Part shown: piece by piece, positions 17,418 through 35,122 of the stretch
How the letters are laid out: the number at the start of each line of letters is the position of its first letter
How positions within the stretch are numbered: position 1 is the first letter of the stretch
Assembly (NCBI RefSeq): GCF_004421105.1
Contig: NZ_CP038033.1
Span: 1,693,659 to 1,757,658 of the forward strand
Direction of reading: 5' to 3'
Length of the DNA stretch: 64,000 nucleotides
From: Nitrosococcus wardiae
GTDB lineage: Bacteria > Pseudomonadota > Gammaproteobacteria > Nitrosococcales > Nitrosococcaceae
Notes under the pieces: generated by a model
Databases searched by the model: none
The model's input: only the letters and a program-made list of their open reading frames with translations
Told to the model about the DNA's origin: nothing
Position numbers and translations under genes: made by a program

Positions 17418-17419
17418 AT
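16466..17419 (-). CDS. IS1595-family transposase (copy 1)
   Basis: A 317-residue transposase. The N-terminal zinc finger reads CPQCGHDKAHLI...YPCAGCRHP (two CxxC pairs), followed by SVTAGTIFHSTKVPLRKWFWAI, the standard ISXO2 opening. The DDE-type catalytic core follows: ELDDALVGGQRAGKRGRG for the first Asp and the HTVFTDAL second Asp, with C-terminal NLKRFILGTDHGVSKAYWQAYLNEF giving the Glu and the FYYRFNRR end. The longest start lies inside the terminal repeat; the true start may be the internal MKAEAMSFFEW or MSFFEW. Copies 1 and 2 differ at one residue I can see (EWQPRF versus EWQIRF). It looks intact. Confidence 0.9.
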   Translation of the reverse strand: MPLNNSQPFLSNELRPWQKAETVMKAEAMSFFEWQPRFPSDEACAQFLAERRWPNGFICPQCGHDKAHLITLRSLYPCAGCRHPVSVTAGTIFHSTKVPLRKWFWAIDWISSDKGGISTLRLSKLLAISWPTAHRMLRKWRLAMGHRDSLYWLSEWWELDDALVGGQRAGKRGRGAERKPPIWVACEDRGERAGFLAMEAVSQVTHPHVADFAQRRLRPQHTVFTDALPALGRLQDCHIHCPRVTPPEQASQWLPWVHVAIANLKRFILGTDHGVSKAYWQAYLNEFYYRFNRRFWGPQLPSRLLNLCVDHAPIPLS

Positions 17420-17488: not shown

Positions 17489-18412
17489 ATGTTTAGTAAA
17501 TTATTTAATTCGCGAGCGTTTAAAAGGTTATCTGAGAAATCTAATTTCATTCAGTGGCTCTATGCTGCCCGCCAACTGCGTTGGGAGCTTAATGCTGGCC
17601 AATATCCTATCTATATAGATTACCCTATAAATCCCATGCCTCGATATGGACATGGTAACCCACCACATAAGTTACTATATGAGCTGTTAAAAAATAATAG
17701 CTTAAAATATGAAGAGACAATAAATAAATTTGCTTTATATAGGGAGTATCTATGTAGTATTTCAATGGAACAACCTATAAATTCTTTCGAGCCATTTTGG
17801 AGAAATGGATGGATAGGAGGAATAGAGGCAGCTGCTCTCTATTGTTTTCCCTGTTTATTGGATTCAAAATTGTATATAGAGATCGGCTCTGGTAATTCTA
17901 CTAAATTCGTTAGAAAAGCAATTCAGCAGAATAACCTTAAAACAAAAATTGTTTCTGTTGATCCTCATCCCAGGGCAGAAATCGATAGTCTCTGCGATGA
18001 GGTTCTACGTAAGCCTTTAGAAGACATAGATATAACACTATTTAACTATTTAAATAGTGGTGATATTTTAATGATCGATGGTTCTCATCGGTGCTTTCAA
18101 AATTCGGATGTCACTGTTTTTTTTCTTGAAATACTTCCAATATTAAAGCCTGGTGTTCTAGTATATATAGATGATATTTATTTACCTTATGACTATCCTT
18201 TAAAATGGAGATGTAGATATTACTCTGAGCAATATTTGTTGGGTACCCTTCTTCTAGCGGATAGCGGTAGGTACGAAGTGATTCTGCCTTGTAAGTTTAT
18301 TAGTAACGATGAGTATTTGAGTAGTCATGTTGATTCGTTTTGGGATAAAATTGGTCTGCCGAAAGGCATAGGTTGTGGTAATGGATTTTGGTTTGCTGTG
18401 AAAACTCACTAA
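17489..18412 (+). CDS. SAM-dependent methyltransferase-like protein (class I)
   Basis: A 307-residue protein. The Rossmann part begins about residue 125: SKLYIEIGSGNSTKFVRKAI is SAM motif I (ExGxGxS), VSVDPHPRAEIDSL the acidic motif II, and ILMIDGSHRCFQNSDVTVFF followed by LKPGVLVYIDDIYLP resembles the Methyltransf_24 group. The first 120 residues are a private N-terminal domain. It may methylate a sugar of the glycan or a lipid carrier; this rests on context. The gene is AT-rich, starts at ATG 17489 after GAAGAGAAGGGAAT, and sits between the IS copies, so it may have moved with them. Confidence 0.75.
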   Translation: MFSKLFNSRAFKRLSEKSNFIQWLYAARQLRWELNAGQYPIYIDYPINPMPRYGHGNPPHKLLYELLKNNSLKYEETINKFALYREYLCSISMEQPINSFEPFWRNGWIGGIEAAALYCFPCLLDSKLYIEIGSGNSTKFVRKAIQQNNLKTKIVSVDPHPRAEIDSLCDEVLRKPLEDIDITLFNYLNSGDILMIDGSHRCFQNSDVTVFFLEILPILKPGVLVYIDDIYLPYDYPLKWRCRYYSEQYLLGTLLLADSGRYEVILPCKFISNDEYLSSHVDSFWDKIGLPKGIGCGNGFWFAVKTH

Positions 18413-18845
18413 GCAGAATTATAGATGTAGAGGCTTAGTTGTGAATTAGCCTATTTATGCCGTATCTCATGTAATGACTTCTGCTTGAAGGGGTTAGGCC
18501 CATAGAGCGCTATCCTTTTATAATGCTCAAAAGCTGTTGAAAAGCCCCTGCTACAAAAGCACTATGTTTCCCAACTCCAGAAAGTGCTTAAAACAGCTAC
18601 TTGTAAAAGATATCAATATTTCGAGGAGCAAAATATTCCTTAAACAATCCTTTTTGAACCCTGCTAAGTATAGCAGCAGCTTGCACTGTGCCCGGAATTA
18701 TTGCTCCAAAAGCGTAGGAAACCTCCTGTTTATCACCACATGGCGAGTTAATGGTATTAATCTCGTGTAAGATTATCTATCCATCGCTGTTACTTCTTGG
18801 ATATATTACTATTACAGATTGGGTCACCACCATAAATTCAAAGTG
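18413..18845. other. About 430 bp without a supported gene
   Basis: AT-rich spacer between a methyltransferase and a sulfotransferase gene. A 77-codon open frame (18537-18770) has no ribosome site or known motif and an odd composition, and is probably chance. A TTG at 18819 is in frame with the next gene but adds only nine residues (GHHHKFKV). No repeats or terminators stand out. Confidence 0.4.
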
Positions 18846-19757
18846 ATGGAACGTCAACAAATAACTAATCTAGTGAACCGCGTGTGGCAAAGGATTCGAC
18901 GAATGGTCGAGACTCCTCCAGTTAAGGAGAGGACTATTGTTCGCGTTGTTAATGCATCTGAAGACAACCCATGTAGACCAGGATTTTTAATTGGGGTTTA
19001 CCGATCGGGAACAACCCTTTTGCGCTTTATTCTAGACAGCCATCCTAATATTGCGGTCCCTCCGGAGACAAACTTTTTAACTACCCTTTCAGAATTTTGG
19101 GATGTGGAATGGAATAGAAAAGGTTTACAGGGTGTCGGTGTAGACGAAGAAATACTCCGCCAACGTTTGCGCCGTTTCGCTGGAAGCATGCTTGACGACT
19201 ACACACGTGCGAAAGGGAAGAGACGCTGGTTTGATAAGACGCCTTCCTATATTGACAGCCTTAATTTCATTGATGCGGTATTTGGAGTGGATACTCAGTA
19301 CATTATGCTCTATCGGCATGGATTGGATGTTGCTGCCTCTTTGGCTACGGTTCATGGAGCCAATGAGTTAGCAGGGCCTGCAATTCGCTACACAGAAGAG
19401 TACGAGCGCTCACCGCGGCTTGCTTTTGTGCGCTATTGGAGAGATCAATGCGAGAAGATGCTTGCCTTTGAAGATGCCCATCATGAGCAATGCTTCCGCG
19501 TGTATTACGAACAGTATGTGACGGAACCGGAATATTACCTTAAGCCTTTATTCAAATTTTTGGGGGAGCAATGGGAATCAGATGTTCTGAACTTCTCGAA
19601 TCAGCCACATGATTTCGGTTTGCAGGACCACAAAGTGGTAGAAACTAAACAATTCAAACCAAGCTTGAACAATTACCGATCATGGCCTCAAGAGGAATTA
19701 GCAGAGGCTCGAGAAATTGCAGGTCCGACATTAGAAAAGCTGGGCTATACTGTCTGA
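18846..19757 (+). CDS. Sulfotransferase family protein
   Basis: A 303-residue protein from ATG 18846. FLIGVYRSGTTLLRFILDSH (about 40-60) is the PAPS 5'-phosphosulfate loop and IMLYRHGLDVAASLATVHG the 3'-phosphate binding motif (Arg...Ser). The family sulfates hydroxyls of glycans, proteins or lipids. It has no membrane span. The TGA stop shares a base with the ATG of the next GT4 gene (TGATG), so the two are coupled. With the other sulfotransferase at 922-1743 it argues for a sulfated surface polysaccharide, an inference that matches the sulfatase-like gene nearby. Confidence 0.85.
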   Translation: MERQQITNLVNRVWQRIRRMVETPPVKERTIVRVVNASEDNPCRPGFLIGVYRSGTTLLRFILDSHPNIAVPPETNFLTTLSEFWDVEWNRKGLQGVGVDEEILRQRLRRFAGSMLDDYTRAKGKRRWFDKTPSYIDSLNFIDAVFGVDTQYIMLYRHGLDVAASLATVHGANELAGPAIRYTEEYERSPRLAFVRYWRDQCEKMLAFEDAHHEQCFRVYYEQYVTEPEYYLKPLFKFLGEQWESDVLNFSNQPHDFGLQDHKVVETKQFKPSLNNYRSWPQEELAEAREIAGPTLEKLGYTV

Positions 19758-20905
19758 TGTTAAGGGCCCAGCCATTAGCAAGGCCTATCCGGATCTTGCA
19801 GCTTGTCCAGGGTTTAGAGATCGGCGGGTTGGAGCAGATGGTGATAACCCTCGTAGAACGGCTGGACCCGGTGCGATTTAAACCTGCTGTATGTTGTTTT
19901 GATGTGCTTGGAGCACTCGTTGTACAACTTACCGCCAAAGATATCCCAGTAGATTTTCTCCCTCGTAAACCAGGCCTCGATCTTTCTTATCCCCTCCGTC
20001 TTGCTCGCTTCTTGCGAAGAAAAAAAATTGACATTTTACATCTTCATAATCCTACGGCACTTTTTTACGGTACACTAGCGGGACGAATTGCACGGACGCC
20101 GGCTATTATTTACACGGAACATGGTCGCGATTTTTCCTCTAGCTGGAAAGTCAAACTGGCCAACCGATGGCTATCAGCGCTAGTCAATGAGGTCGTCGCC
20201 GTCGCAGAAAGAGGTAAAACATACCTTACTTCGGAAGAGGGGTTTGACAGTAGCCGCATCAAGCTTATCTATAATGGGATAGACGCAGATAAGTTTAATA
20301 GCTGGGTATGTCATGACAAACGGAGGGAGATGTTAGCTACTCTCGGCTTGAAACCGGATGACCCTATTGTGGGAGTTGTTGCCCGGCTAGATCCTATCAA
20401 AAACCACGCCAGCTTACTAAAGGCAATGGTGACTGTCTCTCAGCGGGTACCAGGGGCCATGTTACTAGTAATAGGTGATGGTCCACTTCGGCTTGAACTT
20501 GAGCAGCAAGCGCAAGAACTTAGATTAGGAGAAACGGTAAAATTTTTGGGAGCCCGTTCTGATGTGCCTGAGTTGCTCAGCATTCTAGATGTTTTTGTTT
20601 TACCGTCATACAATGAAGGTTTATCGCTTACCCTTATCGAGGCGTGTGCCGTTGGTAAGCCAATTGTTGCTACAGATGTAGGAGGCAACAGTGAAGTAGT
20701 AGAGCATGGGATTAACGGTTTACTCGTACCTTCCGATAACCCTCATGCCCTCGCGAAAGCTATTACTCATATTCTTGCTGATAAAGAGGCGACCCGCCGA
20801 ATGGGGCAAATAGCCCGCGAACGATTTGAAAAGTACTTTACTGCCGATGCAATGGTAGCCAGTTATGAACTGCTATATGATGGCTGTTTTAGTCGTGGTA
20901 AATAG
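19757..20905 (+). CDS. Glycosyltransferase family 4
   Basis: A 382-residue GT-B enzyme. The start at ATG 19757 is fixed by TGATG overlap with the sulfotransferase; the frame is open 25 codons further left but only within that gene. IRILQLVQGLEIGGLEQMVI is the acceptor-side glycine loop (GGLEQ), and PSYNEGLSLTLIEACAVGKP carries the E-x7-E donor-phosphate motif, followed by IVATDVGGNSEVVEHGINGLL. It resembles the PEP-CTERM/EpsH1-associated sugar transferases in style, in keeping with the exosortase-A-type ligase at 23.6 kb, but this finer call is tentative. Confidence 0.88.
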   Translation: MLRAQPLARPIRILQLVQGLEIGGLEQMVITLVERLDPVRFKPAVCCFDVLGALVVQLTAKDIPVDFLPRKPGLDLSYPLRLARFLRRKKIDILHLHNPTALFYGTLAGRIARTPAIIYTEHGRDFSSSWKVKLANRWLSALVNEVVAVAERGKTYLTSEEGFDSSRIKLIYNGIDADKFNSWVCHDKRREMLATLGLKPDDPIVGVVARLDPIKNHASLLKAMVTVSQRVPGAMLLVIGDGPLRLELEQQAQELRLGETVKFLGARSDVPELLSILDVFVLPSYNEGLSLTLIEACAVGKPIVATDVGGNSEVVEHGINGLLVPSDNPHALAKAITHILADKEATRRMGQIARERFEKYFTADAMVASYELLYDGCFSRGK

Positions 20906-21025
20906 GTTTACCTCTCAGGGAGTACTGGGTCGCGTTTCATGCTGTCCTTGAAATTTTAATAAATAAAGGTAGTTCATAAAATTTTTTTATCGCTATGTAG
21001 GGATGGTCAATATCATTGTTTTAAC

Positions 21026-21523
21026 GCCTCTAAACAATTCTCAGCCCTCTCCACGAAGGTTCCCTTGAGGAAATGGTGTTGGGCGGATTGACTGGATAAG
21101 TTCGGACAAAGGGGGGATTTCGGCCTTGCGTTTGTCCAAGCTGCTGGCGATCTCCTGGCCCACGGCCCACCGGATGTTGCGCAAGTGGCGTCTCGCCATG
21201 GGGCATCGTGATAGCCTTTATCGGTTGGGCGAGTGGTGGGAACTCGATGATGCCCTGGTCGGGGGCCAACGTGCGGGAAAGCGCGGTCGGGGCGCCGAAG
21301 GAAAACCCCCCATTTGGGTGGCCTGTGAGGACCGGGGCGAGCGCGCGGGCTTTCTGGCGATGGAGGCGGTGAGCCAGGTGACCCACCCCCACGTCGCTGA
21401 CTTTGCCCAACGTCGATTGAGGCCACAACACACCGTCTTTACCGATGCCTTGCCGGCCCTTGGCCGCTTGCAGGACTGCCACATTCACTGCCCACGGGTT
21501 ACCCCGCCCGAGCAGGCCAGTCA
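21026..21523 (+). mobile_element. Deleted, truncated copy of the IS1595-family element (copy 3)
   Basis: Begins with the same terminal repeat (GCCTCTAAACAATTCTCAGC), then jumps from CAGCCCT directly to CTCCACGAAGGTTCCC. Compared with copy 2 this removes 256 bp (zinc-finger part of the transposase) and shifts the frame. It then follows the element to the sequence GAGCAGGCCAGTCA and stops short, missing the last about 220 bp and the right end. A fragment of the transposase stays open (from 21126) but lacks both ends, so it is dead. Several substitutions relative to copies 1 and 2 show it is older. Confidence 0.8.
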
Positions 21524-21686
21524 TAAGAAAAAGCTTACTTCACGCCGAAAAGCCGCTTAGTATCAATAGGTTAATAATGACTTCCATTGACTCCGCTCCG
21601 GGAACATCCGTCATAACGATGACCTCAAGATAATCTCTTGCCCACAGGTTTTAACCATTATAGCTATTGCCCAAGGAATTTAGAGC

Positions 21687-22508
21687 ATGAACAAAGAGCA
21701 GCTCGAAGAAGAAGTCAAAAAATTCGAATGGATGCACTCCATTGACCTGGAGAACGGTATTATTACCCCTGGAAAATGGCCTCGAAACCCGCATATAGAA
21801 AAAGCCTTCGATAAAATCAATTTTGAAGAAAAAAAAGTATTGGACATAGGAACATGCAATGGCCTTTGGTCGTTCGAAGCAGAAAAAAGAGGGGCATCGG
21901 AAGTTTATTCTATTGATTATCTAATACACGACAACTATTGGTGCACCCCGGCGTATCGATTCGCACATGATACTTTACAATCCAAGGCCATATACAATCC
22001 CGATGTTGATGTATACGATATAGAAAAATTAGGCATTACCGATTTCGATGTTATTATATTTTGTGGTGTTTATTATCATTTGAAAAACCCGCTTCTCGCC
22101 CTCTCTAAAATAAGAAAAATACTCAAAACCGGCGGCCATGTCATCATAGAAGGCCCAATTATCAATGACGATTCCAAACCTATTGCCGGATTTCTCTATA
22201 AAGAAATTGAAAACAAAGACAATTATTTTGGAAGTTGGCATCGAAGCAACTGGTGGGTACCCTCGGGGCGCTGCTTAAGGGAATGGGTGGAATGCTCGCT
22301 TTTCGATATAATCGATGAATTTAGCGGAACCGATCCTTCTTATTTAAATTCCAATTGGTATAAGCTTAAAAGCTTTATAAAAAAAATACTCAACAAAGAA
22401 AAGCCTCATATCAAGCGAACCGTATTGCTAGCTAAAGGCGTCAAGAGGGCAGATAAAAACTACAGCTCAAAGCAAGCGGATAGCGATTTGATCGATTTCT
22501 TTCTTTAA
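21687..22508 (+). CDS. Class I SAM-dependent methyltransferase (DUF1698/CmoB-like fold)
   Basis: A 273-residue protein. KKVLDIGTCNGLWSFEAEKR (about 50-70) is SAM motif I, EVYSIDYL motif II, and DVIIFCGVYYHLKNPLLALS followed by ILKTGGHVIIEGPIIND motifs III and IV. The CGVYYHLKNP segment recalls the DUF1698/CmoB group. It starts at ATG 21687 with AAGGAATT upstream. AT-rich and Lys-rich, unlike the housekeeping part, and set between a dead and a live IS copy, so probably acquired. It likely methylates a sugar or polyprenyl-linked intermediate; the target is not readable. Confidence 0.78.
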   Translation: MNKEQLEEEVKKFEWMHSIDLENGIITPGKWPRNPHIEKAFDKINFEEKKVLDIGTCNGLWSFEAEKRGASEVYSIDYLIHDNYWCTPAYRFAHDTLQSKAIYNPDVDVYDIEKLGITDFDVIIFCGVYYHLKNPLLALSKIRKILKTGGHVIIEGPIINDDSKPIAGFLYKEIENKDNYFGSWHRSNWWVPSGRCLREWVECSLFDIIDEFSGTDPSYLNSNWYKLKSFIKKILNKEKPHIKRTVLLAKGVKRADKNYSSKQADSDLIDFFL

Positions 22509-22541: not shown

Positions 22542-23495
22542 ATGCCTCTAAACAATTCTCAGCCCTTTCTGTCTAATGAGTTGAGACCATGGCAAAAAGC
22601 GGAGACAGTGATGAAGGCTGAGGCCATGAGTTTTTTTGAGTGGCAAATCCGTTTTCCCAGCGATGAAGCGTGCGCACAATTTCTGGCCGAACGACGATGG
22701 CCAAACGGGTTTATTTGCCCGCAGTGCGGCCATGATAAGGCGCACTTGATTACCCTCCGCTCTTTGTATCCATGTGCAGGCTGCCGCCACCCGGTGTCGG
22801 TGACCGCTGGAACGATTTTTCATTCCACGAAGGTTCCCTTGAGGAAATGGTTTTGGGCGATTGACTGGATAAGTTCGGACAAAGGGGGGATTTCGACCTT
22901 GCGTTTGTCTAAGCTGCTGGCGATCTCCTGGCCCACGGCCCACCGGATGCTGCGCAAGTGGCGTCTCGCCATGGGGCATCGTGATAGCCTCTATTGGCTG
23001 AGCGAGTGGTGGGAACTCGATGATGCCCTGGTCGGGGGCCAACGTGCGGGAAAGCGCGGCCGGGGCGCCGAAAGAAAACCCCCCATTTGGGTGGCCTGTG
23101 AGGACCGGGGTGAGCGCGCGGGCTTTCTGGCGATGGAGGCGGTGAGCCAGGTGACCCACCCCCACGTCGCTGACTTTGCCCAACGTCGATTGAGGCCACA
23201 ACACACCGTCTTTACCGATGCCTTGCCGGCCCTTGGCCGCTTGCAGGACTGCCACATTCACTGCCCACGGGTTACCCCGCCCGAGCAGGCCAGTCAGTGG
23301 CTGCCCTGGGTCCATGTAGCTATCGCCAACCTTAAGCGATTTATCCTGGGGACTGACCATGGCGTTTCCAAAGCTTATTGGCAAGCGTACCTCAATGAGT
23401 TTTATTACCGTTTTAACCGCCGATTTTGGGGACCTCAACTTCCTTCCCGGTTACTCAACCTCTGCGTCGATCATGCCCCGATACCATTATCCTAG
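22542..23495 (+). CDS. IS1595-family transposase (copy 2)
   Basis: A 317-residue protein matching copy 1 except for the Ile in EWQIRF. The zinc finger (CPQCGHD...CAGCRHP), the ELDDALVGG, VFTDAL and YLNEFYYRF catalytic-core regions and an unbroken frame all suggest an active enzyme. It cuts and pastes the element using the GCCTCT terminal repeats. The longest start overlaps the left terminal repeat itself; MSFFEW about 28 codons inside is the more usual family start. Confidence 0.9.
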   Translation: MPLNNSQPFLSNELRPWQKAETVMKAEAMSFFEWQIRFPSDEACAQFLAERRWPNGFICPQCGHDKAHLITLRSLYPCAGCRHPVSVTAGTIFHSTKVPLRKWFWAIDWISSDKGGISTLRLSKLLAISWPTAHRMLRKWRLAMGHRDSLYWLSEWWELDDALVGGQRAGKRGRGAERKPPIWVACEDRGERAGFLAMEAVSQVTHPHVADFAQRRLRPQHTVFTDALPALGRLQDCHIHCPRVTPPEQASQWLPWVHVAIANLKRFILGTDHGVSKAYWQAYLNEFYYRFNRRFWGPQLPSRLLNLCVDHAPIPLS

Positions 23496-23556: not shown

Positions 23557-24840
23557 ATGAGAGACCTTGCTGTTTTTTTAGCTGTTTTCGGCACGTTACC
23601 CTTTATCCTTGCCCGACCTTGGGTTGGAATCCTGGTATTGTCGTGGATTGGTTACATGAATCCGCACCGGCTTGCATGGGGATTTGCATACGACTTTCCT
23701 TTTGCGCAAGTCGTTGCAATGACACTGTTTCTAAGCATTCTTTTGTCGAAAGAGCCAAAGCGAATACCATGGACCAGAGAAACAGTGGTGCTTTTGCTGT
23801 TTACTCTATGGATGCTTGTCTCCACCATTGATGCCCAATTCTCATATTTGGCCTGGGAGCAGTGGGACAAGGTCTGGAAGATCCAGCTGATAGTATTCCT
23901 TACTCTGATGTTGATTACTGACAAGCAGAGAATTACTCTGTTGGTCTGGGTAATTGTGTTGTCGATTGGCTTTTATGGGGTAAAGGGAGGGCTCTTCACT
24001 ATCTTCACTGGCGGCTCTTCCAGGGTTTTAGGTCCGCCACAATCTTTTATCGAAACCCGTGGTGCAATCGCACTAGCGCTGAACATGGTTATACCGTTAA
24101 TGCGTTATCTTCAGCTTCAGACACAAAATCCTAGTGCCCGTATGGCCTTTACCTTGGCTATAGGGTTAACGGTATTTGCGGTAGTAGGAACACAATCCCG
24201 CGGTGGGTTGCTTGGCCTGTTGACAATGGGTGCAATGTTGACCTTGAAGACCCGAGGAGCAGCACTATTTGCTGTCTTCGGTGCGGTGGTGTTGGCATTG
24301 GCTTTTTATTTCATGCCAGCCCAGTGGAAAGAGCGTATGGAGATGCTAACTACACCGGAGCAAACTGCACAGCAGGATGCCTCAGCCAGACAGCGAATTG
24401 ATGCCTGGTCTTTTGGCTATTATAAGGCGCTTTCTGAGCCTCTTACAGGAGGAGGTTTCGAGGTCTATGTTGAACACGGGGTAGAAGCCCATAGTATATG
24501 GTTTGAGGTGTTGGGGGAGCAGGGGTTTATTGGTTTTGGGCTCTATCTAGTGCTATGGTTGACCACATGGCGGAGTGCGTCTCGAATCATAAAAATTGTG
24601 GGGAAGCGGCAGGATATCCGCTGGATGAGAGACCTTGCCGCGATGATACAAGCATCTCTTATTGCCTACGCTGCAGGTGGTAGTTTCCTCGGGCTGGCTT
24701 ACTTCGATTTCTTTTACACTTTGATTGCCCTGATAGTGATATGCAAGGTACTGTTGAATAAGGCGTTAGCAGAGGAATCAGCGGAATATTCAACTCCAAT
24801 AGGGAATTATCCGAGACCTGACAATAGAGCTGTCTTATGA
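23557..24840 (+). CDS. O-antigen ligase/polymerase-like protein, exosortase-A-associated type
   Basis: A 427-residue integral membrane protein with about ten spans. The opening MRDLAVFLAVFGTLPFILAR, then WVGILVLSWIGYMNPHRLAW and GLFTIFTGGSSRVLGPPQSF, match what I know of the 'putative O-glycosylation ligase, exosortase A-associated' family (TIGR03097). GTQSRGGLLGL and the loop ending HSIWFEVLGEQGFIG are the Wzy_C-type motifs. Such proteins join or polymerise undecaprenyl-linked glycan repeats at the periplasmic face. No exosortase or PEP-CTERM protein is in the window. The ATG at 24837 of the following, decayed GT4 gene overlaps its stop. Confidence 0.85.
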   Translation: MRDLAVFLAVFGTLPFILARPWVGILVLSWIGYMNPHRLAWGFAYDFPFAQVVAMTLFLSILLSKEPKRIPWTRETVVLLLFTLWMLVSTIDAQFSYLAWEQWDKVWKIQLIVFLTLMLITDKQRITLLVWVIVLSIGFYGVKGGLFTIFTGGSSRVLGPPQSFIETRGAIALALNMVIPLMRYLQLQTQNPSARMAFTLAIGLTVFAVVGTQSRGGLLGLLTMGAMLTLKTRGAALFAVFGAVVLALAFYFMPAQWKERMEMLTTPEQTAQQDASARQRIDAWSFGYYKALSEPLTGGGFEVYVEHGVEAHSIWFEVLGEQGFIGFGLYLVLWLTTWRSASRIIKIVGKRQDIRWMRDLAAMIQASLIAYAAGGSFLGLAYFDFFYTLIALIVICKVLLNKALAEESAEYSTPIGNYPRPDNRAVL

Positions 24841-26266: not shown

Positions 26267-29200
26267 TCAATGAAAATTAGCAGAGACAACATTAGACATT
26301 GGACTCATATTATCATTTTTATCAAAAGTAAAGATGGCAACGTAAAAGGAATGAATTGATCTTGATGTAGTAATAGTAATTTTTTGCTTTTTATTTGGCG
26401 TTGGGATAAGATCCGGACCTAGGGCATTAGCTGCCCACCAATTTGTCATTTTTTTATCTGTGGTAGGCGCTTCTGAAATTGGCTTATCACTCCAGACAAT
26501 ATGATAACGATCAGCTTCTAGAGGAGGCGTCCAAGTTAAGGTAATTCTTCTACCTTCAGGAATAGCTTTAAGATCTGAAATAGCTTTAGGTGGTATTAAA
26601 TCAGCTTTTTTATATTCCCGTACAAACTGTACATGGCGACCTTGAAATTGCCCGTTCCATTCAAGAGCATTTGAGTAGACTTTATCTCCTCCATTAATTC
26701 CTTCTTTAACATACTTTTTTAGGTGGTCAAGATATTTTTGTTTCCCAGTATGTAAAAAATACCAGGCTTGAGGATCAGCTAAATTCTGTGCTCCGTAACT
26801 GGAAGATCCTCTTTGTCCTTTATCTGAGTTAACTTGATAAGCAAAGTTACCATAAATATAGTTCCATTCCATAAGGCCTGAGAGAAAATTGAAGGCTTCG
26901 GCATAAGCTTGCCAGTTTTTTCCTTTGACCTCGTTCATAAAAGTGATGATAGTATGGGCTAAATAACCAACCCAGGAAGCTCTATCCGATCTAAAGTCGC
27001 CATTCCACATTCGGCTGATACTGCCGTGTATTGGGCTCTGATTTTTGCGTAATTTATTAATATACTGTTGATATGCATTAATTAATTCCGGATCACCGGT
27101 GATTCGATAAGCTTGTAAGGCATGAGCTAGGGCATGAGCAGTTCCTCGAGTTGAAGGATCAGGATAGGGATCAAGACGGTGCAAAAAAGTTTTTCTAAAC
27201 TCACCTACAAATTTATACCAATCCTTAATCCAGGGGTTTCCTGTAAAATAATAGGCTTCCTCCATATGATAGAACCATGCATGTTGATCATCTCTTGGCT
27301 TTGCGTCTATGTCCGTACCTTCTATAAACGGAGCATCAAAATGTCTTCTAAAATTACCTCCATTAATTTTTCTCCAACTGTATCCTGCATAAGGATTTTC
27401 CGTGAGTTGAAGAAATTTCCAATCTTTATCAAAGCTGTATTGTGCCATCCATTGAGGGCGTACATTAAGTTCACCCATCGCAAATTGTTCTGCGAAGTAA
27501 TAATCACTTGGATTTTCACTAGCGATGAAAGAGCTTACACTGTAAGGCCAGCCGCCACCTTGTGAAGCGCCCCATTTTCTATGGATATCAATAAGAAACT
27601 GATCCCATCCGAAATTGTATTGCGTTGCTTTATCAATGTTAAAATTTGATGATTTGTATTGATAATGGCGTTGGTCGATAGTCGATGTTTTTTTATCAAT
27701 AGGAATAAAGCCATCCATATCAAGAGTAGCACGGGTAGCCTTATACCAGGCTGTAGGAAGAGTAGCAACCGGATGGTACTGAAATGTCTTCGCTAAATTA
27801 ATTAACTCTTCATTTTCAGTATTTGGACCATGAAAAAAGAGCAACATTTCTTTGTAAACATGTTGCATGTCTTCGAGCCAATATAGTCCTGTTTTTGTAA
27901 AGTGTGGAGTAGCTAATTTTTGTTGCCATTGAGCACTCCACTCTGGAAAAAGCTGGAAGGAAAGTTTGTTTTCGCTGTCGATTTCTAAGCCATTGGGCCA
28001 AGTCTGCCAAAAATAGCGCGTCAGCGCAGTTACTCCTTTTTCGGAGTCGCTAACATCGATAAAACCATCAGCAATTTTTCCAGAGGAGAGAGTAGATTTT
28101 GTTTTTTTATCATAAACTTTAAAACTATCATGGGATTCTTGTGCTAGATAAAGTCCATTCTCTCGTGTTCTTTCGTATATAGAGCCATCACCTATTCCAA
28201 GCCGCACCTTAGGATTGTTGTCCAATTTTAATCGAAAATCGATATTCATTGCTTCGAAATATAGAGGCCAGGAGAAGATTTTATTTTTTGCTGAATTTTG
28301 TAATTGATAATCGATTTTTATAAAAGGTTTATTTGCATAAGCAAATATCCTGACAGCAAAGCCGTGAAGGTGTTTTTTGGTATTAAAATATTTTGTCACG
28401 GCTTCTGCTCTAATTACTACTCTTGTGGGGCCAGATTCTTCTATCTCGAAAGCAACATTATTACGAGAGGAATCAAGTTGAACATCATCCGGTAAACGAC
28501 CTAGAAATACACCCCCATTTTTTTGATTTGAATAAATAATTTTTTCTGAATCATCAAACTTATTATCTTGATTTTGATCGAACCAAACCTTATCAAGAAT
28601 ATTGAATTTCTTTTTATCTACTGTAAATTTGATTGGTCCAGTAATAACTGTAATAAGATTACTTGTTTGTTTTACTTTTAAGGGGGTTTTTGTAGTATTA
28701 CCAGCACTATCGTCTTGTAAATAATAGCGAGCAATGCCTGTTCCCTGACCGCTAAAAGCACTTACTGTAGGTTGGAAATTAATCATTAGATGACGAATGC
28801 TATTGTCTCTAGCCCACCAACGATTCACTATGTTGAACTGTGCAGGTATAGTATCACCCGCAGAATCAATTATTCTAAATGCTTTGGTGTTATGGTATTG
28901 ACCTAGGGGAAGGGGAACAACGGTAGTAATGGGATATGATTTGACAACGACACCTGCAGTTTCTTTCACTTGTAATGGAACTCTTAAGGTGCCCTTTTTT
29001 CCAAACAAATCAGTGTCTTCATTAATTTTTCGCGGTGGGAGGTCTTCTCTTCGCGCTAATGCTGGTTGCCCTTTTTTGTCTGGTTTAGAGATTACAGTGT
29101 GTTTTTTGTCACTGGTAGGAGGTGGTGTTTTTTTAGGGGATGGATGCACTGCTGGAGTTTGGCTAGGCTGAGCTTTAGCATTGTTTTCTTCAAGCCTGCG

Positions 29201-29410
29201 ATTTTTTTGGCGTACTTCCTCCTTAAGATCAGCAATTTTTTGCTTTAATATCACTACCTCAGGATGCAATTCCGTGTAATTTAGCAATAGCCTATCTAAT
29301 TTTTCCTCTAATTTATGAATCTTAGAGTTGGAGGCAGCAGAGTTTTCTCCTGAAGCTAAAGTGATAATGGTCAATAGAAAAAAGAAACTTAAATTAAGTG
29401 AGATATGCAC
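26267..29410 (-). CDS. Secreted RIFT-barrel / exo-polysaccharide-lyase-like protein with N-terminal coiled coil
   Basis: A 1047-residue protein. Residues 1-20 are a signal peptide (LNLSFFFLLTIITLASG). Residues about 30-85 form a coiled coil containing LLLNYTELHPEVVILKQKIA, very like the LLxxYTxxHPDVxxL motif of exosortase-A-type chain-length (Wzz/PCP) proteins. A Pro/Lys/Thr linker follows. From about 145 the protein reads YPITTVVPLPLGQYHNT, DSAGDTIPAQFNIVNRWWARD and IRHLMINFQP, the RIFT-barrel start of the exo-rhamnogalacturonan-lyase-like (PcRGLX/YetA-type) family, then a long helical-toroid part rich in aromatic residues, and a final fibronectin-III-like domain (RRITLTWTPPLEADRYHIVW). It may trim the exported polysaccharide in the periplasm; activity is inferred. 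Confidence 0.75.
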   Translation of the reverse strand: MHISLNLSFFFLLTIITLASGENSAASNSKIHKLEEKLDRLLLNYTELHPEVVILKQKIADLKEEVRQKNRRLEENNAKAQPSQTPAVHPSPKKTPPPTSDKKHTVISKPDKKGQPALARREDLPPRKINEDTDLFGKKGTLRVPLQVKETAGVVVKSYPITTVVPLPLGQYHNTKAFRIIDSAGDTIPAQFNIVNRWWARDNSIRHLMINFQPTVSAFSGQGTGIARYYLQDDSAGNTTKTPLKVKQTSNLITVITGPIKFTVDKKKFNILDKVWFDQNQDNKFDDSEKIIYSNQKNGGVFLGRLPDDVQLDSSRNNVAFEIEESGPTRVVIRAEAVTKYFNTKKHLHGFAVRIFAYANKPFIKIDYQLQNSAKNKIFSWPLYFEAMNIDFRLKLDNNPKVRLGIGDGSIYERTRENGLYLAQESHDSFKVYDKKTKSTLSSGKIADGFIDVSDSEKGVTALTRYFWQTWPNGLEIDSENKLSFQLFPEWSAQWQQKLATPHFTKTGLYWLEDMQHVYKEMLLFFHGPNTENEELINLAKTFQYHPVATLPTAWYKATRATLDMDGFIPIDKKTSTIDQRHYQYKSSNFNIDKATQYNFGWDQFLIDIHRKWGASQGGGWPYSVSSFIASENPSDYYFAEQFAMGELNVRPQWMAQYSFDKDWKFLQLTENPYAGYSWRKINGGNFRRHFDAPFIEGTDIDAKPRDDQHAWFYHMEEAYYFTGNPWIKDWYKFVGEFRKTFLHRLDPYPDPSTRGTAHALAHALQAYRITGDPELINAYQQYINKLRKNQSPIHGSISRMWNGDFRSDRASWVGYLAHTIITFMNEVKGKNWQAYAEAFNFLSGLMEWNYIYGNFAYQVNSDKGQRGSSSYGAQNLADPQAWYFLHTGKQKYLDHLKKYVKEGINGGDKVYSNALEWNGQFQGRHVQFVREYKKADLIPPKAISDLKAIPEGRRITLTWTPPLEADRYHIVWSDKPISEAPTTDKKMTNWWAANALGPDLIPTPNKKQKITITTSRSIHSFYVAIFTFDKNDNMSPMSNVVSANFH

Positions 29411-29627: not shown

Positions 29628-30416
29628 GTGAAACAATGGGGTCACAGGATGCCGCAGCAGCTGTTGCTTTTCCTTTTTATTATCTTGATGTTCTTGCCGG
29701 AAGCAGAAATTTTAGCTGATCTTCCCGATACTATTAATCGTGTCAAGCATGCCGTGGTTGGGATAGGCACTTATACACCCACCCACCAATCTCAGGCAAG
29801 TTATAGAGGGACAGGGTTCATGGTGGCCGATGGTCGGCATGTAGTCACCAATGCTCATGTCTTACCCTCCTCACTCAATGCCAAGCGCCGTGAACATATC
29901 GCGGTGTTTGTTGGCATTCAAGGAAAAGTACGGCGAGCGGAGAAGGTGGTAGTAGATCATAAACATGATCTCGCCCTACTGAAGATTGATGGAGCGTCTC
30001 TTCCAGCATTCTCCTTAGGTAATGCATCTCGGGTACGTGAAGGTGATTTAGTGGCTTTCACGGGATTTCCCATTGGGCCAGTGTTAGGTTTATATCCGGT
30101 GACGCATCGGGGTATTGTGGCAGCAATTACGCCAATTGCCTCGGCTGGAAGAGTCTTAAGGGATCTTAACCCCCAGCGTATCCAGCATCTCCGTTCTGAG
30201 CCTTTCAAAGTGTTTCAGTTGGATGCTACAGCCTATCCGGGCAATAGTGGTAGCCCAGTCTATGACCCGGACACAGGAAAATTATTAGGCGTAGTAAATA
30301 TGGTGTTTGTCAAGGAAAGCAAAGAAAATATACTCAAGGACCCGAGTGGGATCACTTACGCTATTCCGGTAGATCATCTTCGCACACTGCTTAGTAGGGC
30401 AGGATTAAAACCATAG
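29628..30416 (+). CDS. Secreted trypsin-like serine protease (S1C/DegP-like, no PDZ domain)
   Basis: A 262-residue protein from GTG 29628, fixed by GAGGAGG eight bases upstream. An N-terminal signal peptide (LLLFLFIILMFLPEAEILA) is followed by the chymotrypsin-fold triad: His77 in VVTNAHVLP, Asp114 in HKHDLALLKI and Ser207 in YPGNSGSPVY. It ends at residue 262 with no PDZ domain, unlike DegP/DegS. It should act in the periplasm on damaged or specific proteins. It lies just before the HprK-related cluster and could process a product of it, but a 427-bp gap with its own promoter separates them, so this is only a guess. Confidence 0.88.
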   Translation: MKQWGHRMPQQLLLFLFIILMFLPEAEILADLPDTINRVKHAVVGIGTYTPTHQSQASYRGTGFMVADGRHVVTNAHVLPSSLNAKRREHIAVFVGIQGKVRRAEKVVVDHKHDLALLKIDGASLPAFSLGNASRVREGDLVAFTGFPIGPVLGLYPVTHRGIVAAITPIASAGRVLRDLNPQRIQHLRSEPFKVFQLDATAYPGNSGSPVYDPDTGKLLGVVNMVFVKESKENILKDPSGITYAIPVDHLRTLLSRAGLKP

Positions 30417-30843
30417 ATGAATCTTTTTTCCCAAAATATATTGGCTTTGTCAAAATAATTAACACCTTATTGTAGAATTTTATGCACCACACATGATGTG
30501 GTGATGTCTATAATTAATAATCTAGAATGTTCTTATGGCAATTGGCACTCGAAGGGGCCAATAATGATGATTCCGGGGAGAAGATAATTTGGGTTGTTGA
30601 AAAAGGTTACAACTTTGAAGCCTTATTTAGAATGAGAGCGAATATATAAGATATTGTTTTATTCTTTGGGGTTGCTGTGTTCAAACTGTCAATAGAATTT
30701 GCGAATGGGTGAGTACTGTTGATAGTGATAAAAAAATATGGCATAAAAACAATAACTTATATATTGGCGCATATATTGCATATTGCCTTAGATATTTTAG
30801 ATGCATAATATTCTCAAACCAATTATGAGGGAGATGGAGGGTT
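30417..30843. other. Regulatory spacer before the HprK-related cluster
   Basis: 427 bp without a gene. It contains a perfect 7-bp inverted repeat CACCACA-CATGA-TGTGGTG (30485-30503), a candidate operator or small hairpin, and a good sigma70-type promoter close to the next start (listed separately). AT-rich near the promoter. Nothing else is recognisable. Confidence 0.45.
30783..30811 (+). promoter_or_regulatory. Sigma70-type promoter for the repeat-protein / HprK-related cluster
   Basis: TTGCCT (30783-30788), a 17-bp spacer and TAATAT (30806-30811), with the ATG 33 bp downstream behind GGGAGATGGAGG. Spacing and -10 are near ideal. Predicted by eye only. Confidence 0.55.
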
Positions 30844-31902
30844 ATGATTACCTCTCAAGATAATTCTAAAAAGGACGTTAAAGCTTTGAAGACGGAATCA
30901 CTCCAAGGGCAAGATGAACGTTCTTCTTCCGTCTCAAAACCTCGGCGTACCCTTTTAAAAGGAGCTGCGGCGGTGCCGGTCATTATGACTTTGCCGAGCG
31001 GGGCAGCAGTGGCTATGAGCAGCTACAACTCAGAAGCGTGCATAGCAAAAGATCAACAATTAGCTTGGAACGAGCAGCCCAATTGGCTAGTTGAAAGTAC
31101 GGATACTTGGGTACGTAAGGAGGTGAAGGCTAGACAGCTTCAATCTAATAGCTACTCTGATCCTTTTTGGGTTTACCAGCCTCATGAGGATGTAGATCGT
31201 TGGTTAGATGAGTATGGCAGATACTATTACACCCAAAGTGGTGATCCTGTGGAAGAAGCAGGGATGAGTGATCCTGTGGAAGAAGCAGGGATGAGTGATC
31301 CTGTGGAAGAAGCAGGGATGAGTGATCCTGTGGAAGAAGCAGGGATGGGTAGCCGTGAGGATGCTAGGATAGCATGGGCGCGGCGAGCAAGGGAGGAGGC
31401 AGGGATCTATGTGGAAGGCGCAGGGAATAGTAACCCTGTGAGAAGAGCAAGGAATGATAACCCTGTGAGAAGAGCAAGGAATGATAACCCTATGGAAGGA
31501 GCAGGGAATGGTAATTGTACGGAAGAAGCAGGGATGGGTAGCCGTGAGGATGCTAGGATAGCATGGGCGCGGCGAGCAAGGGAGGAGGCAGGGATCTTTG
31601 TGGAAGGCGCAGGGAATAGTAACCCTGTGAAAGGAGCAGGGAATGGTAATTGTACGGAAGAAGCAGGGAATGGTAATCCTAAGGAAGAAACAGGGATGGG
31701 TGCTCCTATGGAAGAAACAGAGAATGGTAATTATATGATAGGACCAGGGAATAGCAATTTTTTAATAGTGACAGAGGATACTCCCCGCTATGTCATTGCT
31801 CAAGTAGATGAGTCCGGTGCGATAATAGGCTTTGGACCTTCTGACCAATTCAATCATATTACGGGTTCATGTTGGTATTCAGTGAATCCCACTACCATAT
31901 AG
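30844..31902 (+). CDS. Twin-arginine-leader protein built of 9-residue tandem repeats; candidate substrate of the HPr-rel-A system
   Basis: A 352-residue protein. Residues 1-32 are hydrophilic, then PRRTLLKGAAAVPVIMTLPS (33-52) and GAAVAMSS form a twin-arginine-like leader that ends near Cys66. This leader style is typical of small proteins encoded beside HprK-related kinase A genes. Residues about 134-304 are a tandem array of 9-residue units, in DNA 27 bp each: four nearly perfect DPVEEAGMS units, then variants (NPVRRARND, NPMEGAGNG, NCTEEAGMG) and an 'SREDARIAW/ARRAREEAG' segment present twice. The C-terminal 48 residues (RYVIAQVDESGAIIGFGPSD, GSCWYSVNP) are unique. Strong ribosome site. 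Function unknown; I infer an exported peptide or protein modified by the three following gene products. Confidence 0.75.
   Translation: MITSQDNSKKDVKALKTESLQGQDERSSSVSKPRRTLLKGAAAVPVIMTLPSGAAVAMSSYNSEACIAKDQQLAWNEQPNWLVESTDTWVRKEVKARQLQSNSYSDPFWVYQPHEDVDRWLDEYGRYYYTQSGDPVEEAGMSDPVEEAGMSDPVEEAGMSDPVEEAGMGSREDARIAWARRAREEAGIYVEGAGNSNPVRRARNDNPVRRARNDNPMEGAGNGNCTEEAGMGSREDARIAWARRAREEAGIFVEGAGNSNPVKGAGNGNCTEEAGNGNPKEETGMGAPMEETENGNYMIGPGNSNFLIVTEDTPRYVIAQVDESGAIIGFGPSDQFNHITGSCWYSVNPTTI
31243..31755 (+). repeat. 27-bp tandem repeat array, 19 units, in frame
   Basis: Units 31243-31269, 31270-31296, 31297-31323 and 31324-31350 are identical but for the last codons (GATCCTGTGGAAGAAGCAGG core). The array then continues in diverged 27-bp units to 31755. 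Inside it, 31332-31441 and 31521-31630 are 110-bp direct repeats with a single mismatch, offset by 189 bp (exactly seven units), which points to a recent block duplication. There are no spacers, so this is not a CRISPR. Confidence 0.9.
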
Positions 31903-31928
31903 ATGTAGCAAAAATACTTTGAAATATA

Positions 31929-32213
31929 GTGTGCAGATTTATTACCTGGAAAGTACCTGATGAAAGAAGTATTTTTTGTGAATCTTTTGGCAATTATTAT
32001 ATCATTTTCAACCAAAGTTCAGGTGAAACCCATCTTCTCAATGAGCTTGCAGCGGAAGCATTACGAATTTTAGAAATTTATCCGGTGAGTGAAGCGGAGC
32101 TTGCAGATCGTTTGAGGGAAGTCTTTGAAGTCGAACTCGAAGAGCTTCTGCCTCGCATGTCGCGCCTGCTTAAAGAATTTGATAACTTAGGATTAATTGA
32201 ACCCTGCTGCTAG
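31929..32213 (+). CDS. PqqD-family protein of the HPr-rel-A system
   Basis: A 94-residue protein from GTG 31929, 26 bp after the repeat-protein gene. It has the PqqD winged-helix pattern: W-x-VP start, then YYIIFNQSSGETHLLNELAA (SGxTHxLN), EALRILEIYPVSEAELADRL and a final helix. PqqD-like domains are the leader-binding 'RiPP recognition element' of many peptide-modifying systems. TIGRFAM treats this subgroup as the PqqD-related partner of HprK-related kinase A. I infer that it presents the leader of the preceding protein to the kinase. Its stop shares one base with the next start (TAGTG), so translation is coupled. Confidence 0.85.
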   Translation: MCRFITWKVPDERSIFCESFGNYYIIFNQSSGETHLLNELAAEALRILEIYPVSEAELADRLREVFEVELEELLPRMSRLLKEFDNLGLIEPCC

Positions 32214-33133
32214 TGAAGGTTGCTTGTCTAAAGGTTCCCGAACTCAAAGAGCGCCTCTCTGGTGTTGGCCTTTATTTAAAAACAGGACCTTTTATTGTCC
32301 GTTTGCAGGGGCAAATTGGCACCCTGCCGCAAATTATCCGATTACTTTACGCAGACTTCCCTGTCGCCAAAGGTGAAGTGATTGCAGATTTTCATATCTC
32401 TTTAAGAAAACCTGGAAATTTGCGCTATTGGTGGCGGCCTCAAGTATTATTTCAAATTGATGGCCGTATACCTTTCGAACCTTTCCCCCTCAAGCTCGCC
32501 ACACCCCTATTGGAGTGGGGTATGAATTGGTGTATTGCGACTCGGGCCCATCATTACTTAATGCTGCATGCAGGTATTGTAGAGAAAAATGGGCAAGGCA
32601 TTATCTTACCTGCCTATCCAGGATCAGGGAAAAGCACACTTTGTGCTGCATTAATTCACCGTGGCTGGCGATTGCTTTCTGATGAATTCGGATTGGTGAA
32701 TATGGAAGACGGCAGGATAGTCCCTTTACCCCGCCCCATTTCTTTAAAAAATCAATCTATAGCAGTGATCCGGGAGTTTGCGCCGGATGCAGTAATCGGT
32801 CCGTCCTTTCCGAAAACCCGCAAAGGAACTGTTGCTCATCTACGGCCACCGACATCTAGCGTTGAACGGATGGAAGAGACTGTTTCGCCTTCTCTAGTTA
32901 TCTTTCCCCGATATAAAACCGGCGCACCTACTGTTTTAGAGTCCTATTCCCAAGCTTATGCGTTTTTGAAATTGGCTAACAATGCCTTCAATTATGAGGT
33001 GCTTGGTGTAAATGGCTTCAAACTTGTCACGAAAATGATCAGATCATGCCAATGTTATGCCTTATCTTTCGGCGATCTAGATGAAGCTATTGCTAAACTT
33101 GATGCTTTGGTAGCCCCTTCATATGCTGGTTAA
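32213..33133 (+). CDS. HprK-related kinase A
   Basis: A 306-residue protein, GTG start at 32213 overlapping the previous stop. The C-terminal half is an HPr-kinase-like P-loop domain: LPAYPGSGKSTLCAALIHRG with Walker A at 135-142, and WRLLSDEFGLV (154-161) with the acidic Walker B-type residues. VPLPRPISLKN follows as in HprK. No phosphotransferase-system genes are near, so HPr is unlikely to be the substrate. Relatives of HprK phosphorylate lasso-peptide precursors (the paeninodin-type clusters), which is the best precedent for peptide phosphorylation here. The phosphorylated target is not known. Confidence 0.88.
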   Translation: MKVACLKVPELKERLSGVGLYLKTGPFIVRLQGQIGTLPQIIRLLYADFPVAKGEVIADFHISLRKPGNLRYWWRPQVLFQIDGRIPFEPFPLKLATPLLEWGMNWCIATRAHHYLMLHAGIVEKNGQGIILPAYPGSGKSTLCAALIHRGWRLLSDEFGLVNMEDGRIVPLPRPISLKNQSIAVIREFAPDAVIGPSFPKTRKGTVAHLRPPTSSVERMEETVSPSLVIFPRYKTGAPTVLESYSQAYAFLKLANNAFNYEVLGVNGFKLVTKMIRSCQCYALSFGDLDEAIAKLDALVAPSYAG

Positions 33134-34241
33134 GCAGCCTTTGTCGGGCGCGGAGCAACTCCTTCTCAAAGCGCTATGTCAACCAGAAAGTTTGTTTGCC
33201 CTGCAAGTAGGGGAGTGGGATTTATTATTACGTGTGGCTCGCCAAGCCCGTCTCTTGGCCTCCTTGGGAGAGCAGATAGAGCAACGGGCTTTACTTGACC
33301 AATTGCCGTTTAAGGTGGCTGAGCATATGACAGCAGCGCGGGCGCTGGCAAATCAGCGTCAGCGCCAAGTGCTATGGGAAATCAACCGCTTGCAGAGGGC
33401 CTTGACTGATATTCATATTCCTTGTGTCTTACTCAAAGGAGGAGCTTATCTTCTAGCAAAATTGCCGGTTGCCAGAGGCCGCCTACTTGCCGACGTTGAT
33501 CTTTTAGTGCCCAAAACGAATTTAAAAACGGTAGAGTTAACCCTGAAACGAGGGGGTTGGGAGGCCGCTAAAGTTGATGATTATGACCAGCAGTATTATC
33601 GTCGTTGGATGCATGAATTGCCTCCTATGCGGCACCGAGATAGGCAAGTCGAGGTCGATATCCACCATACAATTTTGCCTGTGACCAGTCGTTTGCACCC
33701 TAATCCGGATTTGCTTTTGGACGCTGCACAGTCGATTGAGGGGACGCCCTTTAAAGTTTTGGCACCGGTAGATATGGTGCTTCACAGTGCAACGCATTTG
33801 TTTTATGACTCAGAACTGGATGGTCAATTACGAGATTTAGTCGATCTAGATGGTTTGCTGCGCCACTTCGGCCGTGAATTCAGCTTCTGGGAGAGTCTGG
33901 TACCGCGGGCTATCCAGCTAGAGTTACAAAGACCGCTATTTTATGCACTGCGTTATACGCGGCACTTGCTGGAGACGCCTGTTCCTGCTGATGTTATCCG
34001 GGAGATTGAAAATGAAAAACCTTCGGTACTGGTCTCCTTGGTGATGGATAAATTAGTGCCGCGGGCGTTGTTTCCAGAGCATCCGGATCATCCTCGCTGG
34101 TCTACAGGAGTTGCCTGCTGGTTGCTTTATGTTCGCTCCCATTATCTGCGCATGCCAATGCATTTGTTGATGCCTCATCTGGCTCGCAAAGCTATTGGAC
34201 GTGCCCAGAACAAGTATTTGCACCATCTTAAGACAAACTAA
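33123..34241 (+). CDS. Nucleotidyltransferase family protein (PF14907-like)
   Basis: A 372-residue protein whose ATG lies 11 bp inside the end of the kinase gene. The catalytic signature is LLKGGAYLLAKLPVARGRLL (GG at 106-107) followed by ADVDLLVP (the metal-binding DxD at 124-126) and the third acidic site in RQVEVDIHH. Such proteins transfer a nucleoside monophosphate to a protein, peptide or small molecule. The same trio of PqqD-like, HprK-like and nucleotidyltransferase proteins occurs in tailored lasso-peptide clusters. It ends 17 bp from the convergent rpoH stop. Substrate unknown. Confidence 0.85.
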   Translation: MLVKQPLSGAEQLLLKALCQPESLFALQVGEWDLLLRVARQARLLASLGEQIEQRALLDQLPFKVAEHMTAARALANQRQRQVLWEINRLQRALTDIHIPCVLLKGGAYLLAKLPVARGRLLADVDLLVPKTNLKTVELTLKRGGWEAAKVDDYDQQYYRRWMHELPPMRHRDRQVEVDIHHTILPVTSRLHPNPDLLLDAAQSIEGTPFKVLAPVDMVLHSATHLFYDSELDGQLRDLVDLDGLLRHFGREFSFWESLVPRAIQLELQRPLFYALRYTRHLLETPVPADVIREIENEKPSVLVSLVMDKLVPRALFPEHPDHPRWSTGVACWLLYVRSHYLRMPMHLLMPHLARKAIGRAQNKYLHHLKTN

Positions 34242-34258: not shown

Positions 34259-35122
34259 TTAGTCGTTGAGCATAGAACGCAATTTCTTGATAGCGTTATT
34301 TTCCAACTGGCGGATGCGCTCGGCAGAGATTTGGTATTCCGCTGCCAGTTCGTGCAAGGTGCTTTTGCTTTCTTGAAGCCAACGACGGTGGATAATGGCG
34401 CGGCTCCGAGGGTCCAGCGCTTCCAATGCCTGCTGCAGCCGTTGACCATAATAATGCTCTTGATCCAGCCGCTCCATTTGCCCGGCCGGATCGGTACTGG
34501 GATCAGAAAGATAGGCGATCGGCGCAGGGATATCATCTTCGCTATTTTCAGCGTTGGAGCTCTCAAAGGGAGTGTCTTGGCTGCTTAAGCGCGCTTCCAT
34601 TTCCAAGACCTGCTCAGGGCTGACCCCTAGATCACGGGCAACCTCATCCACCTCTTTTCGATTTAGCCAACCCAAGCGCTTTTTAGCGCTCCGCAAATTA
34701 AAGAATAGTTTGCGCTGGGCTTTGGTGGTTGCTACTTTGACGATACGCCAGTTGCGAAGAATAAATTCATGAATTTCAGCCCGGATCCAATGCACAGCAA
34801 AAGACACCAGACGGACCCCTTGCTCTGGATCGAAACGTTTGACCGCCTTCATGAGGCCAATATTGCCCTCCTGGATTAAATCGGCTAGGGGAAGTCCATA
34901 ACCACTGTATCCTCGAGCAATCCGGACCACGAAACGAAGATGAGAAAGCACCAGCTGCCGGGCTGCGTCTAGATCATGGTGATGTCTAAGCCGAAGGGCA
35001 AGATTGCGTTCCTGGTCTGCGCTTAGTATGGGAATACTATGGACAGTTTGACAGTAGGTATCCAGATCGCCCACAGCCACCGGCACCAAGAAGCCATTAC
35101 TATTGCGTACAGTCAGTTCCAT
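34259..35122 (-). CDS. rpoH: RNA polymerase heat-shock sigma factor sigma-32
   Basis: A 287-residue sigma70-family protein of group 3, matching the length of RpoH (about 284). Region 2: [60 protein letters not shown]. The RpoH box, specific for sigma-32, is the [13 protein letters not shown] segment. Region 4 ends [18 protein letters not shown]. It directs RNA polymerase to chaperone and protease promoters. Its promoter is overlapped by a perfect CIRCE operator, which adds HrcA control unusual for this gene. It lies after ftsY, as in other gammaproteobacteria, but ftsE and ftsX are absent between them. Confidence 0.95.

Follow-up and report, generated by a model that had tools for sequence, protein, structure and literature searches.

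A putative leader-guided protein-modification and export cassette with a PqqD-like protein, an HprK-related kinase and a nucleotidyltransferase in Nitrosococcus wardiae

The four-gene cassette and its conservation

We analyzed a stretch of 64,000 nucleotides from Nitrosococcus wardiae (NZ_CP038033.1, positions 1,693,659 to 1,757,658, in the following called the window), which lies inside a single contig of 4,022,640 bp. Four consecutive genes of the window, here called the cassette, encode a precursor protein with a twin-arginine leader, a PqqD-like protein, an HprK-related kinase A and a nucleotidyltransferase (Table 1). The original prediction, made from the DNA letters alone, had described four consecutive genes of which the last three overlap or lie one base apart, and the open reading frames (ORFs) agree with this. 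The PqqD-like and kinase genes overlap by 1 base (32213), the kinase and nucleotidyltransferase genes by 11 bases (33123-33133). The identities proposed for the last three gene products, including the assignment to the HPr-rel-A system, were borne out by family models. The PqqD-like protein reaches 55.9 bits with TIGR04353 (cut-off 35) and 31.1 bits with PF05402 (cut-off 23.4), the kinase 406 bits with TIGR04352 (cut-off 200) and the nucleotidyltransferase 197 bits with PF14907 (cut-off 31.2). With the model for HprK proper (TIGR00679) the kinase scores 23 bits and stays below the cut-off of 240. No Pfam or NCBIfam family matched the 352-aa precursor, for which TAT_signal (PF10518) was found only sub-threshold, and the precursors tested from other loci did not match any of these models either. 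A single promoter, which had also been proposed, could not be confirmed, as the promoter and terminator scan of the cassette gave weak consensus matches that are not distinctive.

Table 1. Features of the cassette and the adjoining peptidase gene in window coordinates
Feature	Position	Strand	Basis or remark
Trypsin-like serine peptidase gene, upstream of the cassette	29628..30416	+	PF13365
Precursor protein gene, type 2, 352 aa	30844..31902	+	ORF; no Pfam/NCBIfam family
Twin-arginine leader, residues 1-57	30844..31014	+	RR 34-35, TL.SG 49-53, candidate signal-peptidase site A55-V-A57
Nonapeptide repeat array, residues 133 to about 303	31240..31752	+	27-bp period
Ser346 codon, predicted phospho-acceptor	31879..31881	+	context GSCWY-S346-VNPTTI-COOH
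PqqD-like gene (RiPP recognition element, RRE), HPr-rel-A type, 94 aa	31929..32213	+	TIGR04353, PF05402
HprK-related kinase A gene, 306 aa	32213..33133	+	TIGR04352
NTP_transf_5 nucleotidyltransferase gene, 372 aa	33123..34241	+	PF14907

Conservation of the set was followed in 110 parsed loci, namely 80 named loci from a GTDB scan with the kinase alignment, 29 loci from a class sample and the window. Some loci represent one organism sampled twice (e.g., L034/L128 and L037/L113; L numbers denote loci). The class sample comprises 369 genomes, 41 of which (about 11%) contain the kinase over the cut-off. Homologous clusters that regularly lack a leader-bearing protein, which would have spoken against the original prediction, did not turn up. 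Only loci with enough flank were counted, and nine variant leaders that escaped the profile were assigned by eye. The leader protein is present in 101 of the 103 loci that could be tested, PqqD in 109 of 110 and the nucleotidyltransferase in 106 of 106. These three and the kinase form a conserved set, and the gene order is alike in about 100 loci. The leader protein is usually encoded upstream of PqqD; in L125 and L142 it lies downstream of the kinase. The HPr-rel-A system is described by TIGR04352 (HprK_rel_A) together with TIGR04353 (PqqD_rel_X), and the cassette kinase and the adjacent PqqD are both above these curated cut-offs. Public plasmid records annotate a similar gene string. A literature search for the system by name yielded no paper, and no substrate family model or named target was found. 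Judging from the sequence comparison, the NTP_transf_5 nucleotidyltransferase is a feature of HPr-rel-A clusters, which is established here.

The kinase residues H119, K140, D157 and E158 are each kept in 109 of 109 sequences, and the P-loop comprises G137, G139, K140 and T142. In the nucleotidyltransferase K105, G106, D124, D126 (D124-x-D126) and D179 are invariant over an alignment of 61 sequences. A PDB sequence search with the PqqD-like protein and the nucleotidyltransferase gave no meaningful matches. The same genome encodes a second HprK-related protein of 414 aa (C1:1603645-1604889; L153:3146-4390, minus strand), with an apparent N-terminal PqqD-like part joined to the kinase. It looks like a natural PqqD-kinase fusion, and its gene adjoins a sugar-transferase-like gene.

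Leader, invariant serines and two types of substrate

The first gene product had been described as a leader-bearing protein with a repetitive middle and Cys-containing ends. This holds, with cysteines at positions 66 and 343 in addition to those within the repeats. In the alignment of type-2 precursors (A4; see below) the leader residues R34, R35, P45, T49, S52 and G53 are invariant. A leader profile built from a 32-residue alignment (A2) was run on 74 whole genomes, of which 41 are kinase-positive and 33 kinase-negative, the latter including three congeners as well as eight genomes in which HprK-like matches are weaker. At E<1e-3 it matched 36 of the 41 kinase-positive genomes, each time just upstream of the kinase locus, a count that is partly circular because some profile rows were drawn from genomes of the test set. 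Among the 33 kinase-negative genomes there was no match at this level; this negative count and the lack of strong matches elsewhere are unaffected. The genome-wide co-occurrence of leader family and kinase that had been proposed as a check was thus found. In the genome of N. wardiae the leader match at the precursor has an E value of 2e-12 and the next best one 0.1. Two weaker extra matches in positive genomes are a protein similar to high-potential iron-sulfur proteins (HiPIP-like) of the twin-arginine translocation (Tat) type and a 68-aa peptide near a hemN-like gene. This Tat-leader peptide (L151:169-375, minus strand; SRRDFLKKTAYVAPVVLTLQAAPSLAA...) adjoins the hemN-like gene and is leader-like in style, at a different locus. 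By the whole-genome scan, which rules out a generic Tat signal, the twin-arginine leader is specific to the four-gene set.

The repeat array contains four identical DNA copies at 31241-31347 and has a higher-order unit of 189 bp (63 aa). A protein search of 59 relatives found the repeat protein of the window in its own genome only. Because relatives lack the repeats, they are ruled out as the modified region and are, by this comparison, a lineage-specific insert that is incidental to the system. The view of the repeat protein as the substrate therefore stands in part: the leader protein almost always accompanies the enzymes, but the leader and one invariant serine (S346) are conserved, not the repeats. 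An unrelated repeat protein could also be a chance neighbour of a PqqD-kinase pair, and an array peculiar to this genome and the absence of the cassette from four relatives would suit such an origin. With the leader profile matching at precisely this gene, S346 conserved and the gene order repeated across loci, we regard it as extremely improbable.

The precursors fall into two types. Type 1, about 80% of the loci, has the motif C-x-x-S-G-x-x-S-G-N-x-S directly behind the leader, and after it a core that is folded and contains a PGYW motif. The precursor of the window belongs to type 2, which has the leader in common with type 1 and a different core. Divergent cores under one conserved leader are a RiPP-like trait (RiPP, ribosomally synthesized and post-translationally modified peptide). 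The mean column identity in the two precursor alignments is 17-18%. Among 50 aligned type-1 precursors no column is invariant except those of the two arginines and the serines S51 and S55 (numbering of L128); among 16 type-2 precursors this is true of leader residues and S346 only (numbering of the window). In all 20 of 20 type-2 precursors the motif [ACSG]-x-x-S-[LIVFMC] occurs within the 16 C-terminal residues, compared with a mean of 5.4 and a maximum of 13 after shuffling and with 0.6 for other parts of the core. Of the type-1 tails 1 of 81 has it. These counts are optimistic since the motif was defined on the same data. The smallest type-2 precursor (L057) has 74 residues and contains little beyond the leader except SACISCNASLI. 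For a type-1 precursor AlphaFold2 predicted a confident core of residues about 65-207, with the leader and S51/S55 in a low-confidence N-terminal part, which is probably flexible. Type-1 substrates are thus predicted to be folded proteins of about 200 aa; a fold search of the core against the PDB gave nothing significant.

The type-1 core was found in 28 of the 41 kinase-positive genomes, in 27 of them at the kinase locus, and with two marginal matches only in the 33 kinase-negative genomes. By these counts it appears largely tied to the system. The one exception is a secreted-looking protein of 475 aa (L174:484-1911, plus strand), which contains a type-1 core (GCTPGYWRQPQHFW...) and no cassette leader, and the core domain therefore occurs outside the system too.

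In a quick tree of the kinases (110 rows) all type-2 loci lie beyond one branch, with a support of 99 in the Shimodaira-Hasegawa-like approximate likelihood ratio test (SH-aLRT). Shuffled labels needed 19.4 changes on average, and 0 of 500 shuffles were as low as observed. The same pattern would arise if the cassette had been inherited as a whole. Therefore, the tree shows co-inheritance and is compatible with, but no proof of, a specificity of the kinase for the core.

A plasmid search with the kinase, made afterwards, added two cassettes, one in Sphingomonas parapaucimobilis and one in Vibrio alfacsensis, in both of which the gene upstream is annotated as hypothetical protein. In Sphingomonas this protein carries an RR leader and a C-terminal TCFLSVQNPRT, in agreement with the motif of type 2. 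In Vibrio the RR leader precedes CSITSCMSGNAS, which is a variant of type 1. There was no PqqD among the annotated genes of the Vibrio plasmid stretch, and its kinase had no relative in the phage collection. Variation in layout was also seen among type-2 loci. In L079, L097, L057 and L059 the nucleotidyltransferase gene is located upstream on the opposite strand and not behind the kinase gene. In L080 (141-674) a type-2-like precursor tail (..AGTCLCSISP..) runs into PqqD without a stop codon; the contig begins there, and the open frame is possibly a precursor-PqqD fusion.

Proposed mechanism and alternative explanations

We consider it rather probable that the cassette serves the leader-guided modification and export of a protein. 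In the cytoplasm, the PqqD-like protein would bind the twin-arginine leader and offer the substrate to the kinase, which would phosphorylate the conserved serine (S346 for the precursor of the window; S51, S55 or both for type 1). The nucleotidyltransferase would add a sugar or a nucleotide onto the phospho-serine. The Tat system would export the substrate, and the signal would be cut at A-x-A. The core idea of the original prediction is largely supported by these sequence data and is sharpened in that there is a genuine family of substrates, with one serine as the predicted target.

The mechanism is drawn by analogy, since the serine positions match the sites of lasso-peptide kinases. PadeK, ThcoK, SyanK and PsmK, HprK homologues of lasso clusters, phosphorylate a C-terminal serine, and BsfK phosphorylates the core Ser3, a reaction that is greatly accelerated by the RRE BsfB1 (PMC8498205, PMC9266682, PMC10368454). 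These two sites correspond to the two serine positions of the cassette substrates. The lasso tailoring systems (PadeK/ThcoK/SyanK, PsmK-PsmN and BsfK-BsfB1-BsfN) likewise combine an RRE, an HprK homologue and a nucleotidyltransferase, with PF14907 assigned here for the cassette enzyme alone. Their kinases have the catalytic His-Lys-Asp as in the cassette kinase (PMC9266682, PMC10368454). As this combination of B1 (RRE), K and N genes also occurs in some lasso clusters (PMC10368454), the cassette might be read as a degenerate or atypical lasso-peptide cluster. We hold this to be very improbable. Among the ORFs of at least 60 aa inspected at 26-40 kb, neither a B2 transglutaminase-like leader protease nor an asparagine-synthetase-like cyclase adjoins the cassette, which argues that it is not a lasso cluster. 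An asparagine-synthase-like gene (55036-57048) lies 21 kb off and belongs to another gene group. Unlike lasso precursors, the substrates comprise 74-352 aa with a Tat-type leader, and those of type 1 are predicted to be folded.

The last chemical step can be read in two ways. The product reported in vivo with PsmN of the pseudomycoidin cluster carries one or two hexoses on phospho-serine (PMC9266682), and by analogy the nucleotidyltransferase of the cassette may put a sugar, not a nucleotide, on the phosphate. Tentatively, we propose a fuller picture, in which the Tat signal doubles as the RRE leader, the PqqD-like protein holds the exported protein and the invariant serine is phospho-glycosylated or nucleotidylated, in a proteobacterial surface-protein pathway that is mostly associated with XrtA and exopolysaccharide. 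It is also quite conceivable that the leader protein, as the substrate, receives no sugar, the nucleotidyltransferase adding AMP or another nucleotide, or the kinase polyphosphorylating the serine. This alternative differs in the last chemical step only, and the confidences overlap. In its favour, the enzyme belongs to a nucleotidyltransferase family (PF14907) and has intact KG, DxD and D residues; lasso kinases can polyphosphorylate, and nucleotidylation by PsmN followed by glycosylation by the host is possible (PMC9266682). The hexoses on the PsmN product and the frequent location of the cassette in polysaccharide loci, with sugar donors at hand, speak rather for a sugar.

Export by Tat fits the RR motif, the hydrophobic region and the A-x-A site of the precursors as well as the presence of TatC in the genome; 85 of 105 precursors also have a basic residue after their hydrophobic region. 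Tat proofreading chaperones of the DmsD/TorD type hold twin-arginine leaders until maturation is complete, and members of the HprK family can be regulatory. Hence the leader could be a Tat signal only, with the trio regulating or quality-checking export, PqqD acting like a proofreading chaperone and reversible phosphorylation as a switch. The same precursor features and the regulatory HprK proteins would agree with this, but other Tat-like signals of the same genomes score far lower with the leader profile, and the obligatory nucleotidyltransferase and the kinase lineages tracking the core would be left unexplained. We regard such export control as unlikely. In the modification pathway favored here, a cytoplasmic protein is likewise proposed to bind the twin-arginine leader; it belongs to the PqqD and not the TorD family, and the client would be covalently modified instead of cofactor-loaded. 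Bufferins and other RiPPs modified by multinuclear non-heme iron-dependent oxidative enzymes (MNIO) likewise have long precursors with a signal peptide in the leader's place, and preliminary results of the bufferin authors point to the Sec signal peptide as part of the recognition sequence (PMC12452194). They differ in their MNIO/DUF2063 enzymes, their chemistry and the use of a Sec instead of a twin-arginine signal (PMC12452194).

Several observations weigh against the modification pathway. The fourth catalytic Asp of the lasso kinases is Glu158 in 109 of 109 cassette kinases, and the comparison with solved HprK structures (E=0.005) is confined to the P-loop region. L063 and L067 have no adjacent precursor. 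The serine motif was defined and tested on the same alignments, with only two out-of-sample loci. The AlphaFold2 model of the window precursor is of low confidence (predicted local distance difference test score, pLDDT, 46.7), mostly disordered including the repeats and otherwise uninformative. Finally, the association with XrtA speaks for the pathway, the exosortase being over the cut-off in 35 of 41 kinase-positive versus 38 of 328 kinase-negative genomes of the class sample, but its odds ratio of 44.5 was counted from two tables with statistics that ignore phylogeny.

XrtA/PEP-CTERM exopolysaccharide genes neighbour the cassette in many loci; in N. wardiae the XrtA gene is located about 49 kb away. 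The co-occurrence with this exosortase and exopolysaccharide suggests that the modified protein acts on the cell surface or within the polysaccharide matrix and provides a physiological lead. The new element is the lasso-type trio of RRE, kinase and nucleotidyltransferase with large exported proteins and without lasso machinery. For this trio, present in 41 of 369 class genomes, the analysis assigns to each locus one substrate family, its leader and a predicted acceptor serine. If the proposal is true, lasso-type phosphorylation or glycosylation of serine is not limited to small peptides but extends to folded proteins that are exported, and a Tat signal serves as a modification leader.

Genes surrounding the cassette

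In 20 of 65 loci the trypsin-like peptidase gene is no more than 7 kb away from the cassette. In four relatives, of which three are congeners and the fourth belongs to the same family, it directly adjoins the homologue of the gene at 34259-35122, which we take to encode an rpoH-type sigma factor, with nothing between. As these four relatives have no cassette, it was therefore either gained here or lost in all four. Among 59 relatives, none apart from the own genome has the kinase over the cut-off. The candidacy of the peptidase as a cassette gene is weakened because the congeners without cassette retain it beside rpoH; a processing role is possible.

The region upstream is rich in glycosyltransferase-like genes, the last of which encodes an exosortase-A-associated O-glycosylation ligase (23557-24840; TIGR03097, 452 bits). 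Between the polysaccharide genes and the cassette lies a gene (26267-29410, minus strand, GC content 37.5%) for a secreted-looking protein of 1047 aa with a PcRGLX-like central beta-sandwich (PF21345). Two near-identical transposase-like genes of 317 aa in opposite orientation (16466-17419, minus strand, and 22542-23495, plus strand) bracket 5 kb (17489-22508) with sulfotransferase-, glycosyltransferase- and methyltransferase-like genes, which were recognized by eye. This stretch is possibly a composite element.

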